This document shows, piece after piece, positions 14,964-58,307 of a DNA stretch of 58,307 nt. Each line of letters opens with the position of its first letter. Position 1 is the stretch's first letter. Origin of the DNA: Mycoplasmataceae bacterium. GTDB lineage: Bacteria; Bacillota_I; Bacilli_A; Mycoplasmatales; Mycoplasmoidaceae. A model generated the notes under the pieces. The model was not told where the DNA came from and did no database searches. It worked only from the letters and a program-made list of their open reading frames with translations. The stretch lies in assembly GCA_031258945.1 (NCBI GenBank), contig JAIRME010000045.1, positions 1-58,307 on the forward strand. Reading direction: 5' to 3'. A program made the position numbers and the translations under genes.

Positions 14964-15025
14964 AATCCCCCCCCTTGCCGTCACATAATAGGTAACATGT
15001 ATTTAATTAGCAATGGGGGGGGATT
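14964..15025. repeat. Inverted repeat whose arms are C8 and G8
   Basis: AATCCCCCCCCTTGC at 14964-14978 is matched in reverse by GCAATGGGGGGGGATT at 15010-15025, one base bulged, with about 31 bases between. Both arms contain an eight-base G/C homopolymer in an AT-rich genome. Slippage in either arm would change the stem. Confidence 0.75.
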
Positions 15026-15067
15026 AATTGAAATAGTGCTATAAGCACTAATTTAGTTCTTTCTCTA

Positions 15068-15106
15068 AAAACAAGATCTTTGACAACGCCAAAGGTCTTG
15101 TTTTTT
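15068..15106 (+). terminator. Strong terminator-like hairpin in a surface-gene leader
   Basis: AAAACAAGA-T-CTTTG (15068-15082) pairs with CAAAG-G-TCTTGTTTT (15090-15104), a 15-bp stem with one wobble and a seven-base loop, followed by T6. It lies 32 bases before the start at 15138 with no promoter between, so it may attenuate that gene or end a small upstream RNA. Confidence 0.7.
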
Positions 15107-15137
15107 GTTGCTATCTGACAAAATTAAGGAGAGAAAA

Positions 15138-16475
15138 ATGATACAAAATAAAACAACTTCAATGCAAAGAAAACACCATAAAAGAAGAATGGTATGAACT
15201 AGTATTTTATGCGGAATAGCATTAATGGGTACAGGTATTGGTATTGGTTGGGCAATCCATACTTCTAAAAAAACTAACCCTGATTTTACCAACCCACAAA
15301 TTCTGTTAAAGAGAACGGAAGGTGATCCTTCTTTAAAAAATGAAGGTGACTATATAGAATACAATGTTGAATGTAATATTTCTTTATCTAATTTTACTGG
15401 TTCTAATGTATCTATTTCTGATATTGAACAAATTGGTCAAAATGGTCAAGGGTTTATATGACTAAGAGGTTATACTCCAGACACTCACGAAGTCCCCATA
15501 GAAAAACAGACTCGAATTATTTGAAATAATCCTGATGATATTAGTAAAGGAGTGCGTTTACATATTGAACTTATTAAAGACTATGATGGTTCATTAGGAG
15601 AGTTTTTACCAATTGATGTTACTTTTACTATCCATGATGACAAAAATAGATATGAAGACGTAAAAACAACTGCTCATGTTGTATTAGATAGCGACAATGA
15701 TGAGCCTGTTATTACCAATGATCGCATTAGTAATGTTTCAACCATAAACATGGGGATGAATCGCGATACAACGATTGAAGATATAGTAAATTATTTACAA
15801 GCTACTAATGAAAGCATAAGCGGAACACAAACGCTAAATGATGATTTTTTTAGCCAAAATATTAACCCTTCACAAGTAGCGGCCTTATTTTTTATTGAAA
15901 CTTTGAATATTTGAAAAAATTGTTTGGTAGATTTTTTCAACACATATGTGGATACAGAACAAGAATATGCTATGGATACTTCTTTTTATGATTTTTCTCA
16001 GTATACAATTGATTTTAGAATAGATGATATTATTTATTCAGGATCAGATACGTTTGGTAATAAAAAATTTTTCTGTTCTTTTGAACAAGAAATATTTAAT
16101 AACAATAATGAGACTATAGATCTTTCTGAAAGTGGTGCATATTTTGTACCAAAATATCCATTTCCAAAAGATAGTTCTGATACCTTCTACCCTTTTTATG
16201 ATATTCCATCCGCGTATTATTACGGAATTAATAAAACAATTTCAGATGTTGTATCATCTTATACAACATCAACTGAAAGGTGTGCGACTAATTTATCAGG
16301 AGGTAGTAATTTTTCAGCATCTCTCATAGATAGCAATGAATATATTTCTGGTAATTTGATAAATTTATGAGTATACCCATATCGTACAGGTGGCATATCA
16401 TTATTCAATCAAACTGATTACACTCCAACATCCATTGCGGAACTATTTTGACCAAATGTAACTTTCGCAAATTAA
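15138..16475 (+). CDS. Membrane-anchored surface protein of unknown function
   Basis: A 445-residue protein with a basic N-terminus (QRKHHKRRM), one hydrophobic segment at about residues 20-39 (signal anchor, no lipobox Cys) and a long polar, Asn/Asp/Ser/Thr-rich ectodomain. AAGGAGAG precedes the ATG. Four regions join only through UGA Trp codons. No family is recognised. It shares style (anchor plus polar beta-rich body) with the surface proteins at 24-40 kb. Upstream are the G8 tract and a terminator-like hairpin, so expression may switch. It converges with the helicase gene; the 129-base gap shows no clear terminator. Confidence 0.75.
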
Positions 16476-23305: not shown

Positions 23306-23336
23306 ATTATAAAGTAATGGGGGGGGGAGTTGTCAA
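23306..23336 (-). promoter_or_regulatory. Promoter with C9 tract in its spacer
   Basis: On the - strand a perfect TTGACA (23331-23336) and a perfect TATAAT (23306-23311) are separated by 19 bases. Nine of these (23319-23327) are a C homopolymer. Loss of two C would restore the optimal 17-base spacing. Spacer-length switching is an established phase-variation mechanism. Confidence 0.85.
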
Positions 23337-23641: not shown

Positions 23642-24580
23642 TTATACTACTTCGTAACTAACAATAATTGAACCAAAATAATTGTCGCCAAAAGCTTCAA
23701 TATAACATACACCATGATTAGGTTCACTAGTTACCACTTGCGATCAAAATGCTTCTCATCCACTCAATGGAGTTGTTGTAGTGTTTAATAATTCTACTCT
23801 TAATCTAATGTCTTGTCTATTTGGTTGTTTGATAAAAGTACCTAAATTTTTGTTAACAATAATAGTATTAATATCAACTCCTTTTGGATATTCAAAAGTA
23901 ACTTGTGCCTGCCCGCTAAAGAACGAATTCCCCAAATTAACATTAATCATTGCACCAAAATCATTAAAATTAACAGTCAATTGCTGGAGTACTTCATTCC
24001 ATGAATGTAAATCTCAATCATTAGGTGAAAGTTCATTCATTGCAAAAAAAGTTTTAACCACATCTAATTCGGTTGGTTTCCCATCATAAAAAGAACCAAT
24101 ATCTTTTTTAGGTAGTTGACCAATATCTCTTTGTGCAAGATAACAAATAATTTCAGGTGATTTAAATTCTTGTTTGTGGACTGATGCAACTAATCAAAAC
24201 TTAAATTGTAAAACATCAGTTGGAAAGATAACATCATCGCGAAAAGAAATCGTTAATGAATGTGTTCCATCATCATCATTACCATGCAATCCTTCTATTT
24301 TTAAAATTTGATCTCAACTATAAGTATCTGGTAGATTAGAGTATTCAGTTCAATGAATATCATTTCACTTTATCCCTCCCCCCCCAGCATACTCCACTGA
24401 TAAAACTGTACTATTGTAATTAGTATTAACACAGCTAATGGACTCGTATGATAATGCATAATTAATGCTAACCTCATCATTCGACTTTCTCATTAAAAAT
24501 CAATATGTACAAAATCCGCCAGCACCTACAACTGTAAGCCCTATTATTGGCAAAATAATCTTAAGTTTCTTTTTTTTCAT
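23642..24580 (-). CDS. Surface protein with in-frame G8 coding tract (ON)
   Basis: 312 residues: basic start (KKKKLK), one hydrophobic segment (about 6-29) as signal anchor, and an Asp/Thr-rich ectodomain. Codons 66-68 are GGG GGG GGA, from a G8 homopolymer at 24378-24385. The frame is open through it to the TAA at 23642, so this copy is ON; one base gained or lost would shift frame near residue 67. Seven or more UGA Trp codons are used. The segment NSFFSGQAQVTF resembles FYTGSVTIT and MYTGEIKVVF in the preceding gene, suggesting shared repeat modules. It starts 35 bases after that gene. Confidence 0.8.
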
Positions 24581-24615
24581 TATTCATAATTAGTAATACC
24601 AAAAAGTTTGACTAT

Positions 24616-25893
24616 CTAATATGAAGTACTCCAAGTAATAGTAACAGAACCAGTGTAAAATAAATTACCTGGAATTGGTTCAAGAGTAAAAGTACCATCA
24701 GACTGTCAATCATTTCAAGTTGATACATTATTTCAATTACACCCACTAGGTAATAAGATAGCATCCCAATTAATAGCAGTATCTAAATTCGCGTCAAGAG
24801 CTTGCATAAAATCAGCAAAAGTAGGTTTTTCAATGAATGAAAGAACACGTTTATCACCCGGAACAACAGTTTCTAAATTTTCTCCAGTTGGTTCTACAGA
24901 ATAAGTAATTTGTTTAATACCGGTTCAATATTCATTCCCTTGCTTAACGCTTAATGTTCTACCACCTTGTGAATAAGTACCAAAATTTACATCTTCTTGA
25001 ACTATGTTTTCCTTGGTACCGAATGCATTCTTATTGGTTTCCATAAATCAGCTAAATATCTCTAAATCAGAAGGATCTTCAGCCAAAGCTCCTCCTGCAC
25101 TCATATTTGTAATGGTTGCCGAACTGAAGTTGATACGTCCAACATTAAACACAACTTTAATTTCACCTGTATACATATTGGAATAATCAATTGGAAGAAG
25201 ATTAACTGAATAAGTATCAACATCATCGCCAGCATCATTCCATTGTAATCCTGTAGAACTTTTTACATCGTCAATTTTGATTTGGTTAATATCTAAAGCA
25301 CCGTTATATAAGGTTGATGCATCCAATCACTTCAATAAATTTGTTTGATTATCAATACCTTTCAAAGAAGACACATCAACAGCACTTTGTGTTGATAACC
25401 AAGTTGCATAACTACTGTTTAAATTTACTACATTGTCTGTTCCATTAAAAGCTTGGTTCAAAGTAATAGGAGTAGTTGGGTTTTGTTGCGCTCATTGAAT
25501 ATTAACTACATTACCTGAATCAGTTTTGTAATCAGGTGATCAATCTACTACTTTAACCTGAGCTGTACATACACTAGGGGTTGACACATTAATATTATTA
25601 AAAGTTCATTGATTAGGATGTCAATTATCATCTTGGGAACCACTTGGGTTATTAGCAATTTTTAAAATACTATTTAATTGACGAGAATTAGGGGTTATAT
25701 TGACTCCTCACGGAACAGTGCCTAAATTTGTAATCGTAAGAATAGAAGATAATTCTATTGGGTCTCCAACTGTCTGTACATTAGAATGACTATTTAAAAT
25801 AATGTTTGTAACTACTCCAGTAGTCATTCCTAATAATCCAGCTGCAGACAGCGAACTTGCTGTCAAAATTACTATTTTCTTTCTCTTATTCAT
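24616..25893 (-). CDS. Surface protein, paralogue-like to its downstream neighbour
   Basis: 425 residues with a basic start (MNKRKKI), a hydrophobic segment (about 8-34) and no lipobox Cys, so anchored rather than lipidated. The body is polar with short motifs MYTGEIKVVF and FYTGSVTITW that recur in the next gene; such beta modules are familiar in mollicute surface proteins. Intact only with UGA as Trp (25708, 25048 and others). TATAAT at 25930-25935 is the likely -10, and a nine-base C tract occupies the -35 position, so the two-gene operon is a phase-variation candidate. Function unknown. Confidence 0.78.
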
Positions 25894-25929
25894 ATGAATT
25901 CCTTTACCATAACATCTGCTAACGAAAAC

Positions 25930-25964
25930 ATTATAACATTTTCGTCATTATTGATGGGGGGGGG
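25930..25964 (-). promoter_or_regulatory. Promoter with C9 tract at the -35 position
   Basis: On the - strand TATAAT (25930-25935) lies 37 bases before the ATG at 25893. The C9 homopolymer (25956-25964) covers where a -35 hexamer would sit with a 17-base spacer; no TTGACA is present. Tract length may set contact with polymerase or a factor. Confidence 0.65.
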
Positions 25965-28020: not shown

Positions 28021-30033
28021 TTATATTCCTCCTTTCACTATTGGATCTTGTTCTACACTAACATTCAAAGGATATGTTGTATAACCAACGGCTGCAGTTT
28101 TAGTGTTAAAAACATAGATCATTAGCACAAATCCATATGATGAAATAGTGCCAGTAGCAGTAACATTAAGTTTTCCACATTGTTTATAAGTTGGGTCATT
28201 CACAGTTTCAAAAAAATTAACGGAAATATTATCAGCGTCGTATGTTAGTGCATATGAATAGATCAAGTCAGTAGCACTTCCCGATATATTAAATATAATG
28301 TCCCTTGTTTCATTTTGTGCTAAAACTATACTAGAAGTACTTTCATCTTCATATTTTATATTACGATAAGTTGGAACCATATCAGTTGTTGGAATGGAAA
28401 CAATTACCAAAGTAATATTTTTGGTGCCATCAGTTAATCCATTTTTGGTACATTTAATGGTTAAACTATATGTTCCTACTTCTGCATCTGTAGTTCAAAC
28501 TAATTGTCCTTTAGTAGTGGCGGACATTGAAATTCAATTTGGTAGTGTACCACTCGTGGCAGTAACACTTCATGTACCAGTATTAGTAATATTTGTGCCG
28601 GTATTATCGCCTGCTTGAAAATCTGCGGTGCCGGCTGTACTAGTAGCACCTTGAAGATTACTAGTCCCATAAATAGTGATAGATGATGGAGTTGGAGCAG
28701 TATTAGAAATCAATAAAGTAACATTTTTAGTGCCATCAGTTAGTCCACTTTTGGTACATTTAACGGTTAAATTATATGTTCCTACCACTGCAGCTGTAGT
28801 TCAAACTAATTGTCCCTTAGTGGTGGCGGACATTGAAATCCAACTTGGTAGTGTACCACTTGTAGCATTAACACTCCATGTACCAGCATTAGTAATATCT
28901 GTGCCAGTATTATCACCTGCTTGAAAATCTGCAGTACCAGACGTATTAATAGGACCTTGAAGATTATTTGTCCCATAAACGGTGATAGATGATGGAGTTG
29001 GAGCTATATTAGAAATCAATAAAGTAACATTTTTAGTACCATCAGTTAATCCATTTTTGGTACATTTAATGGTTAAATTGTATGTTCCTACCGCTGCAGC
29101 CGTAGTCCAAACTAATTGTCCTTTAGTAGTGGTGGACATTGAAATTCAATTTGGTAGTGTACCACTTGTGGCAGCAACACTTCATGTACCAGTATCAGTA
29201 ATATTTGTGCCAGCATTATCGCCTGCTTGAAAATCTGCGGTGCCGGCTGTGTTGATAGCACCTTGAAGGTTACTAGTCCCGTAAATGGTGATAGATGATG
29301 GGGTTGGAGCTACATTAGAAATCAATAAAGTAACATTTTTAGTGCCATCAGTTAATCCGCTTTTGGTACATTTAATGGTTAAATTGTATGTTCCTACCGC
29401 TGCAGCTGTAGTCCAAACTAATTGTCCCTTAGTGGTGGTGGACATTGAAATCCAACTTGGTAGTGCACCACTTGTGGCAGCAACACTTCATGTACCCGTA
29501 TCAGTAATATTTGTACCAGCATTATCGCCTGCATGAAAATCTGCAGCTCCAGCCGTGTTAATAGCACCTTGAAGATTATTCGCACCATAAATATTGATGG
29601 ATGTTGGAGTTGGCGCAGGATTTGTAATAGTTAAATGAAATTGTTTTGAACCATTTTGATTCGTGTCTTTTTTAAAATAAGAAATAGCTAATTCGTAATC
29701 ACCAGCAACTGCATCCGAAGTTCAATCTAGTTGGCCTTTATTTGATGTGGACATTGAAATCCAACTTGGCAATGTACCGCTTGTAGCAGTAACACTTCAT
29801 ATACCATCATCGGTAATGTTTACGTTGCCATTATTAACTGCTTGAAAATCACTACTATCTGCGACTCCTGATATGCCTGAATGATTCTCCGTTCCATGTA
29901 TGACTACATCAGATGATCATTTGCTACTAGCGATTGCTATAGCGGTTATTGGAGTAACAATTGTTGCAGACAATAAAAGAGAAGCACAAATTATTGGAAG
30001 AGGTTTTCCCCATGATAAAATACTTTTTTTCAT
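28021..30033 (-). CDS. Surface protein with near-identical Ig-like repeats
   Basis: 670 residues. A hydrophobic signal segment (about 12-36) is followed by one diverged and four nearly identical 102-residue repeats, then a unique C-terminal domain of about 135 residues. Each repeat carries GTLPSWISMS and VGTYNLTIKCTKSGL, an Ig/He_PIG-like beta domain. The DNA repeat is 306 bases. UGA marks one Trp in most repeats (GTWSV). Such arrays extend from the surface and change length by recombination. Second gene of the operon, starting 10 bases after the first. Confidence 0.85.
28394..29617 (-). repeat. Four 306-bp tandem repeats
   Basis: Units start near 29617, 29311, 29005 and 28699 (- strand). 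A landmark (AGATGATGG on the + strand) recurs at 28681, 28987 and 29293, exactly 306 bases apart. A diverged fifth unit precedes them at about 29920-29618. Confidence 0.9.
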
Positions 30034-30043
30034 AATAACTATC

Positions 30044-33000
30044 CTACTTAATTGGTAATGGTATGATTCATTCAACTAATAATTTTTTATTGTCGACTTG
30101 AATAATGGCTTGAATGGTAATATTAAATGTTTGGGTAGGAAGATGATCAATCCGTAATTTGTTACCAATTAATGTAACATAATTCTCGGGTTTATCTTCG
30201 GTTGATAAAATATTCCAAACTATTTTGGAATTATCAATGGATGAACCATCACTCATTTTAATTACTCTAAAAATAATTTCATCACCTATTACAGTATTAC
30301 CACTACTATCAATTGCAAAATTTGGTTTGTCAGAAATAATGCCATATGAAACAGTACCATCTGAAAAATTAAAGTTAGCAAGATCATCGATATAAATTTG
30401 TATTATTCCTAAAACAGTAGTGAGTGCAACCAATAATGCTGTTGCAATAGCCATACCTATTGGCCCACCTTTAAATCCTTTTGGAAGTTCTGGCGATGAA
30501 CCACCTGCAACACCAGCAGCATCAACTGCGGCCATCGGTTCTGGTGGAAGAGCAGCAGGTGCATCCGGTGCTGGGGCTGGTTCAGGAGCTGGATTAGAAG
30601 AGGAGGAAGAGGAGGAAGCTTCTGAATCAGAAACATCATCACTATTTGGAAGACTACCATTTTCTTCTTCCTCTTCAGCAGCAATATAAGTTAATGGACT
30701 ATCACGAGTAAGTTCTGGTGCATGTTGTTCAACGAAAGCACATGCACCATCTAGGTCGGCTGGCGGGTCTACTCCATTGACACTATAACTACCGGATGAA
30801 TATTGACTAATTCGTCCACCTCATCTCATTCACACCGTTCCAAATAATTTCACACCAAGCATTAACCCTGGTAATGCTGCAGAACCTATCATAAAATAAT
30901 TAGAATACATTTCCGAATCTGTTAAGGAATCCATAATTGCTCTTCATTTTGCCAAATTTTGTTCTTCAGCATTATCATTTTCAGCGGTAATAACATTCAT
31001 TATGTTTGTTAAAAAAGTTCTATAGTCAGTCGTCATTGTAGCAATGGTACTTGATATATCATTTGCTGCTTGTTGTTTAATTAACAAATCTTTATGTGGG
31101 TCTCAAATGGTTTGATATCGTGCTAATATTGAAGAACCAATTTTTGCAAACGTATCTTTAATATTGATATCATAATAATTAGAGAATTTTTTCCATACTT
31201 TTTTGAACTTACGAATTGAATCAATTTCTTTCCCTTCTACTACATCAGCAGTAACGAGTAAACCAACTGCTGCCGTATTTAAAACAATTGAAAATGATAA
31301 ATACGCTGCAAATCCGCCAGATGCTATGAGGATAGCCGTATCAGTAGAAGTCAAAGCAATTAATCCTGCTTGTGCTACATTCATACTTGCTAAAAAACTA
31401 ATTTTTTGAGTCAATATTTTATCGACATTATCTTGGTTTTGATGTATGACTGTATTTAAACAATCAAAAAAATTCAATTTATTCATATCTTCTGTAACAT
31501 GGGTTGCAAAGTCTATCACTTTTGCTCATTGGGGATCAACATAAAAATTAATCCAAATATCGTTTTTAATTGTCCCATTATCATTTCAATTAAAAGTTTG
31601 CGCCTCGTAATTACCGTTATTTTTATCAGAATCAATAATGGCTCAATGTGCAAGCACAGAGAAAGCATGTTGCCCAGCACCTTCAGAATTAGTATTAACA
31701 TCAGTCACCACTAATTTTAACTTCTGATTTGCATGAAAACAACCATCTTTAATTGGAATGGCAGGATTAATTTGCGGAATATCAATTCCTTTACATACGG
31801 ATGGATCAACATACATCGGGTCATCTTTACTAACTATATAATCTTGGTTAGCATCCTCTTTACCATAAGTCGACATTAAATAATAAAGTGGTATTCTAAT
31901 ATCTGGGCTACTAACATCATAGTAACGATCTTGATTGGAGTCATAACTACCAGAAGTAATATTTACAGATTTATTTGGATAATATTCATGTTGTGAAATA
32001 TATTTAACTTCATCTTTTTTAACATTGATTTCGATTGACAATGGATGAGCATCATCATTAATTGGCGCTCACAAAACATTAGATTGATCTTGATCAGAAG
32101 CAGTAGCAGAAATTCCAAATTGAAGATCTAAATGACATTTATGGCTGTCAGCTCATACATCTTTACCAGTAATTCTAAGATGTAGTTTATAACCAGGTAT
32201 GATTTCAGCCAATCCATAGGTTGCCCCGTAACCAGAATATGTTGAAAGTGGTTTAATTTCATATTGATTTAATGCATTATCATAATCACCACTTTCAGAT
32301 GGTTTTAAATCGTTAACATTGATATCTATATTTGATAGATCTACTTTACTAAGTATTGCTCCTTCTGTACGATCGTAGGCAAAATTAAACAATTGACTTA
32401 AGTCATTTGCACCAATTTCATCATTTACATCATATTGTCCATTAGCCGAATAATCTATAATTTTCTTAGTAAAATCGGTATCAGGAATAACTGTTAATAA
32501 TTGATTTAAATGTCTCTGGGCAAAATTTAGAGCCGCTTGTTTTTGTATGTCAGTAGAAGTAGGAGTATCAGTTAAATTTTTACTTTTAATTTGTTTAGCA
32601 GATAAACCATTTTCAAACATGCCAGTTGCTAAATGATATGTAAATTCAAATGGATCTCATAACTGATTCTCACCTTGCGTGGTAGTGACGTCAAAAACAT
32701 TACTAAACTGATCTGTTTTTTGCTTGGCTTGAGTTGGATCAACACCAGCAGAAATTAACATATTCATATAGCTACCCATCGTTGCTTCTTTGTTTTTAAT
32801 TGCCAATGAATAATCATTAAGATCAGCACCAATTTTTGCTGCTTCTCTTAAAATAGCATTGTATTTTACATTTAATAAATCTTGTTCATTATCTTGCTTA
32901 TTCTTATTGTTACCAATACTTTGAAAATCAGAAACCGCTTTATTTACATTGAATAAGAAAGCTCCTGTTTGTTTTATCACATCATCGTGAGCCGAATTAT

Positions 33001-58085: not shown

Positions 58086-58307
58086 GTGAAGTTCAAGATA
58101 GTCAAATCATTATTAATATTAAACTGTGCAATTGTGGGGGGGGGTGACTCTTAGTTTATTTAGCACTTCGTGCTCTAAACCACAAACAGAGGTTGATCCA
58201 ACTGATTATGTAGGTAATGCAGACGGTAGTAATTGGAAAGGTTATGTAAGTGGGACACTTACATGTACATTTGATGATGATAACGGTTCTGCAACACTTA
58301 TTAATGG
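58086..58307 (+). CDS. Phase-variable lipoprotein, frame-shifted OFF by G9, 3' end beyond window
   Basis: From GTG 58086 the protein starts (M)KFKIVKSLLILNCAIVG and meets a G9 tract (58136-58144). With nine G the frame stops at TAG 58152-58154 after 22 codons. With eight G it continues VTLSLFSTSCSKPQTEV, a complete signal peptide with lipobox STSC, and stays open to the end of the window (VDPTDYVGNADGSNWKG and on). So the gene is a typical mollicute lipoprotein now switched OFF by one extra G, assuming no sequencing error. Confidence 0.8.

Follow-up and report, generated by a model that had tools for sequence, protein, structure and literature searches.

The two-gene operon at positions 25893-24616 and 24580-23642 (minus strand) of the DNA analysed here is best read as an operon for surface proteins that is subject to simple-sequence contingency control, in which a C9 tract at the promoter sets output and a G8 tract within the second gene switches that gene. 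We put the probability of this reading at roughly 60%. Slippage at C9 and G8, the effect of C9 on the promoter and the surface location of the proteins are what we infer, and support is stronger for the promoter tract than for the coding tract. The stretch analysed, referred to as the window, is contig C35 (58,307 nucleotides) of a draft genome that totals 835,014 bases across 46 contigs and has a GC content of 30.6%. Genes in the window are open only when UGA is read as tryptophan, and the closest named relative by ribosomal protein S4 is the Mycoplasmataceae MAG Pcl387_bin181 (95%). As another MAG of the Pcl387 set was described from a lower termite (PMC12887300), a termite-gut origin is likely for the source bacterium, a member of the Mycoplasma group.

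Both genes of the operon encode predicted surface proteins with an N-terminal membrane helix. Gene 1 (425 aa) is preceded by the Shine-Dalgarno sequence AAAGGA; gene 2 (312 aa) has no Shine-Dalgarno sequence. Neither gave a credible match in Pfam or NCBIfam, a genome-contig search returned no named relatives of gene 1, and single-sequence structure prediction of gene 2 was unusable (pLDDT 34). Orthologs of both genes were found adjoining each other in two congeneric genomes, G024 and G042, at 60–62% identity for gene 1 and 51–53% for gene 2 (60% and 51%, respectively, in G024). The two genes are separated by about 35 nt, and their order and tight spacing are kept in both congeners, which bears out the operon proposed from sequence alone. 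Promoter-like sites upstream of gene 2 were not above shuffle level, and a separate promoter for this gene was rejected. Directly after gene 2, at 23640-23590, an ATG-AAA-AAA start opens a frame of just 17 codons. At the matching position a third operon gene is present in both congeners, of which the short frame is possibly a decayed remnant.

Long C/G runs were found to be far more frequent in the window than expected by chance. Run lengths spanned 1–5 nucleotides, no runs of 6–7 were present and six runs reached 8–9, compared to a mean of 0.03–0.22 runs of at least 8 per window, and a maximum of 2, in Markov sequences of order 1–3. A MutS domain was missing in 36 out of 36 congeneric genomes, with controls positive in 11 out of 14. 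Genome-wide, 70 runs of C8 or longer were counted. A perfect TATAAT followed within 30 nt downstream for 21 of these 70 on the C strand, compared to 1 in 70 when the G strand was taken and to an expectation of about 1; 2 of the 21 represent leader modules, described below, read from their back side. That such runs arise without selection for slippage, through mutation bias or errors in assembly, is the least probable of the explanations weighed here. The source is a draft metagenome assembly and homopolymers are error-prone, but the placement of the tracts ahead of TATAAT is strand-specific, tracts recur at equivalent positions across independent genome assemblies, and GA or AC repeats replace G tracts at the same leader position. 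Around 15 of the 92 contig ends of the genome (G000) have a C/G tract no more than 400 bp away, which is above expectation, and module repeats or tract heterogeneity may be responsible for these assembly breaks. Tracts of G7–G8 were also seen within genes of metabolic or transport-like appearance (L030 1604, L026 4021 and L024 3941), namely PTS-like proteins and an ABC ATPase, the latter presently out of frame.

The promoter of the operon was predicted from a TATAAT box at 25930..25935 (minus strand) that is preceded by TGT, giving an extended -10 element (TGTTATAAT). The C9 tract (25956..25964, minus strand; G9 on the plus strand) ends 20 nt before this box, and the -35 position carries no good hexamer. 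The sequence-only reading had placed C9 at the -35 region; the tract is present there and can now be positioned at or just above -35, outside the -35/-10 spacer. Distances from C tract to TATAAT in the genome fall mainly into two classes, one of 4–9 nt, which places the tract between -35 and -10, and one of 19–20 nt, which places it at or above -35. The operon belongs to the latter class. A search pattern fixed at a distance of 17 nt returned 3 matches only, and this geometry was discarded as wrong.

Some Mycoplasma surface-antigen promoters, such as those of vlp in M. hyorhinis, carry A tracts in the -35/-10 spacer. The loci described here resemble them in that Mollicute surface genes carry promoter homopolymers, and they differ in the use of C rather than A tracts. 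The operon C9, at 20 nt from the -10 box, does not share the spacer geometry of vlp. That geometry was observed for the C9 tract at 23319..23327 (minus strand), located between TTGACA and TATAAT in a 19-nt spacer upstream of a lipoprotein gene (23274-22501), and for the other loci of the 4–9 nt class. The lipoprotein gene carries an Ig-like domain (PF05345), and a C7 in place of C9 would give its promoter the usual 17-nt spacer.

As C9 lies outside the -35/-10 spacer, graded control fits the operon better than a clean on/off switch. Replication slippage in C9 would change the alignment of upstream DNA with the extended -10 promoter, and the tract is expected to act like the T tract of Helicobacter pylori sabA, so that C9 length would set operon output most likely as a rheostat rather than strictly on or off. 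The extended -10 element may keep up a basal output, or may leave the promoter insensitive to C9 length. In G024, the only genome available for promoter comparison as in G042 the contig starts within gene 1, the orthologous operon has a C9 with an identical 20 nt to TATAAT (L065 4740-4748). That both tract length and spacing are unchanged between two species whose proteins are about 60% identical might suggest that C9 is a fixed structural or protein-binding promoter element, for example an activator site or a nucleoid feature, conserved for its function and not for its variability. This we consider unlikely: C-tract lengths among the tract promoters of this genome span 8 to 12, and the occurrence of two -10 distance classes speaks against one fixed binding site.

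The G8 tract (24378..24385, minus strand; C8 on the plus strand) was confirmed inside codons 66-68 of gene 2 and in frame, as had been proposed. It begins exactly at codon 66 (GGG GGG GG|A GGG). A length change of +1 or -2 would give a product of 81 or 80 aa and a change of -1 or +2 a product of 69 or 70 aa, compared to 312 aa for the intact protein. The gene 2 protein would accordingly be on at G8, G11 and G5 and off at other lengths, leaving the first protein unaffected. Residues EYAGGGGIKW in the window correspond to EYSGVKW in the orthologs, whose codons TCT GGT GTC and TCG GGC GTA are replaced by GCT GGG GGG GGA GGG ATA. The tract is therefore a lineage-specific, frame-keeping insertion of three codons that is missing from both orthologs.

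These observations lend some weight to the possibility that only the promoter tract switches and that G8 is a recent, tolerated glycine insertion, selected to stay in frame and without a regular off state. In addition to its absence from both orthologs, an A interrupts the tract after G8, and coding tracts deeper than codon 60 were in frame in 8 out of 9 cases compared to 8 out of 15 start-proximal tracts, a bias that weakens the case for a regular off state of gene 2. We nevertheless regard this explanation as doubtful, although less so than a fixed C9 element. Codons rich in GGG are rare here and avoidable, GGG making up 9% of glycine codons in other window genes and 3 out of 4 at the insertion; the lack of runs of 6–7 in the window gives those reaching 8 the appearance of being selected or self-propagating, and MutS is absent. 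Because G8 is absent from the orthologs and deep intragenic tracts are mostly in frame, gene 2 may be switched rarely.

Slippage of a coding-region G8 run could also occur during transcription, in which case one template would yield a mixture of in-frame and shifted gene 2 products. This explanation is highly improbable, given that the in-frame DNA state requires no slippage and that a length difference was seen at the DNA level at another tract. The latter, a G9 tract, is located at 58136..58144 (plus strand), close to where a lipoprotein-like gene starts. The ends of contigs C1 and C35 overlap over 365 bp and are 97.5% identical there, differing by 8 substitutions and a single gap; this gap falls in the tract, which is G9 in C35 and G8 in C1 (L012 3994-4001). 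The gene is open with G8 and not open with G9. The two alleles constitute a strain-level difference and point to variable tract lengths within the population sampled, at a tract separate from C9 and G8 of the operon. A further, likely source of size variation in the window is a surface-protein gene at 28021-30075 that contains a tandem array of near-identical units, each of about 102 codons (SSITIYGTSNLQG...).

Contingency control by C9 and G8 together has a precedent in sabA, where a T tract adjoining the -35 element is stacked with a CT repeat in the 5' end of the coding region (PMC4081817). The promoter-proximal homopolymer, which lies outside the spacer, gives graded output and the coding repeat acts as an on/off switch; variation in repeat length is proven (PMC4081817). 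The operon is alike in that a homopolymer outside the spacer, adjoining -35 of the predicted promoter, is stacked with a coding repeat in which a change of one nucleotide in either direction would abolish the full product. In sabA, however, both repeats act on one gene, whereas the coding tract of the operon resides in gene 2 and not in gene 1. The operon tracts are C and G, in a bacterium that reads UGA as tryptophan, and not T and CT, and the operon is likened to sabA, with its proven length variation, on the basis of its sequence. These differences aside, the operon can credibly be regarded as a two-repeat contingency locus of an established type, with sabA-like stacking. It would belong to a set of dozens of repeat loci spread over the genome, in which a second repeat is often found below a promoter C tract.

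The sequence-only reading had anticipated at least three output states for the operon, namely no protein, the first protein only and both. This is supported in part: changes in G8 are predicted to truncate gene 2, while for the promoter graded control fits better than a clean on/off switch, and the state with no protein may not be reached if the extended -10 element sustains a basal output. The stacking itself could be coincidence, because pairing of C tracts and G tracts outside the leader modules is not clearly above chance: a G tract was found within 2.5 kb of a C-tract promoter at 5 out of 12 loci, and in view of how the loci were chosen this does not clearly exceed the local density of 0.1–0.27 per 2.5 kb. 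The cleanest stack of a promoter and a coding tract in the genome was seen at a single lipoprotein gene (L045, G000:C41:52040-52145) with a C9 promoter tract 19 nt from TATAAT and a G9 in signal-peptide codons 11-13.

The idea of stacked repeats is stronger at a family of leader-attenuator modules, one of which lies in the window at 14967-15138 (plus strand). A C8 promoter tract (14967..14974) is followed by a -10-like CATAAT (14984-14989) and, 7 nt after it, by the ATG of a leader ORF (14997..15126) that is a member of covariance-model family R1. A G8 tract (15015..15022) is part of both the leader ORF and the 5' arm of a first hairpin, and an intrinsic-terminator hairpin (ACAAGATCTTT..AAAGGTCTTGTTTTTT) at 15067..15106 precedes a surface-protein gene starting at 15138. 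The leader has a folding z-score of -5.7. With G8 the leader ORF meets a stop after 15 codons, while with G9 it would stay open for 43 codons and run through the terminator; the leader is at present in the short frame, presumably the off state. The pair of C8 and G8 was also considered as an invertible element and rejected, the arms being merely 8 nt long and the intervening promoter and ATG always being oriented alike relative to the downstream gene.

The order of elements in the modules is TATAAT, about 6 nt, ATG, 4–6 codons, G8-10, hairpin 1, intrinsic terminator, Shine-Dalgarno sequence and surface-protein gene. The G tract lies around 25 nt after the -10 box, downstream of many C tracts, and pairs with a pyrimidine arm to form hairpin 1, and the terminator has the form ACAAG...CTTGTTTTTT. 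An alignment of 19 copies backs both hairpins, including compensatory changes. With a covariance model, about 20 full copies were found in this genome along with 50 matches in G042, 15 in G024 and 12 in G021; the search gave no match in most of the other congeners, and comparison of the leader to Rfam gave no match to a known RNA family. At about nine loci, including 14967-15022 of the window, a promoter C tract is stacked with the leader repeat, and the other leader loci have the leader repeat alone. One copy in G024 has (GA)11 at the position of the G tract. A complete C-tract/G-tract leader module is also carried by L043 (G000:C40, 4527 bases), whose first 101 bases are identical to its last 101 bases, as would be expected of an element of about 4.4 kb that is circular or tandemly repeated.

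The reading frames of the leaders are closely tied to the terminators. From ATG to tract the frame was open in 19 out of 19 copies of this genome, compared to 12 and 11 out of 19 for the other two frames; in the sister species the corresponding counts were 36 out of 36, and 30 and 35 out of 36. An intrinsic terminator was located in 52 of the 53 leader copies examined. In all 52 of these copies the long frame after the tract enters the terminator, and in 49 of them both other frames stop 10–50 nt before it. In three genomes this pattern was seen in 18/18, 9/9 and 23/26 copies as opposed to roughly one third in dinucleotide shuffles, counts that do not amount to a formal p-value as copies within one genome are related. 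The long frame is presently occupied in 5 out of 19 copies of this genome and in 11 out of 36 of the sister species, which is near one in three. Leader modules were also considered as N-termini of long surface proteins, and this was rejected as no ORF of at least 90 aa spans the G tracts at any tract length.

Based on this arrangement, the length of the leader repeat would decide whether a translating ribosome prevents premature termination, and probably sets ribosome-dependent read-through of the leader terminator. A device of this type has been established by experiment for pil1 of Streptococcus gallolyticus, in which GCAGA repeats lie in a leader peptide ahead of a premature terminator (PMC3894217). 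The module at 14967-15106 and its relatives share with pil1 a repeat-bearing leader ORF, an intrinsic terminator and a leader stop that is placed upstream of or inside the terminator depending on frame. They differ in forming a multi-locus family in several species, in a start about 6 nt from the -10 box that makes them apparently leaderless, in the use of G, GA or AC repeats, and in an extra hairpin that includes the G tract, often with a C-tract promoter above.

The two-gene operon lacks such a leader, as neither a terminator nor a repeat was found between its -10 box and the ATG of gene 1 (25935-25893). Its ortholog in G024 (L065 4740-4950) has one, in which the C9 promoter is followed by an ATG 9 nt after the -10 box, by (AC)16 and, ahead of gene 1, by an intrinsic terminator. 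The present frame of this leader stops exactly at the base of the terminator and the other two frames stop 20–25 nt upstream. We lean, somewhat less firmly than for the operon itself, towards a cassette shared across this clade of Mycoplasma-like gut symbionts. It would consist of a C-tract promoter tuning initiation and an apparently leaderless leader ORF bearing a G, GA or AC repeat, the frame of which decides on suppression of the terminator, and it would control dozens of surface-protein genes. On this view the operon would descend from such a cassette, having lost the leader attenuator that its G024 ortholog retains and acquired a frameshift tract within gene 2.

The genome-wide array of leaders is the more novel result when compared to the operon. 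In the literature searched, phase-variable attenuation was encountered in one pilus operon only, that of S. gallolyticus pil1. The layout of the modules predicts that read-through depends on tract length modulo 3. Evasion of vertebrate antibodies is not the obvious reason for antigen switching in insect symbionts. If the proposed cassette holds true, a small genome would obtain combinatorial surface states from two layers of slippage, at initiation and at attenuation, with few protein regulators needed, and attenuation by repeat would be a recurring genomic device in uncultured insect symbionts.
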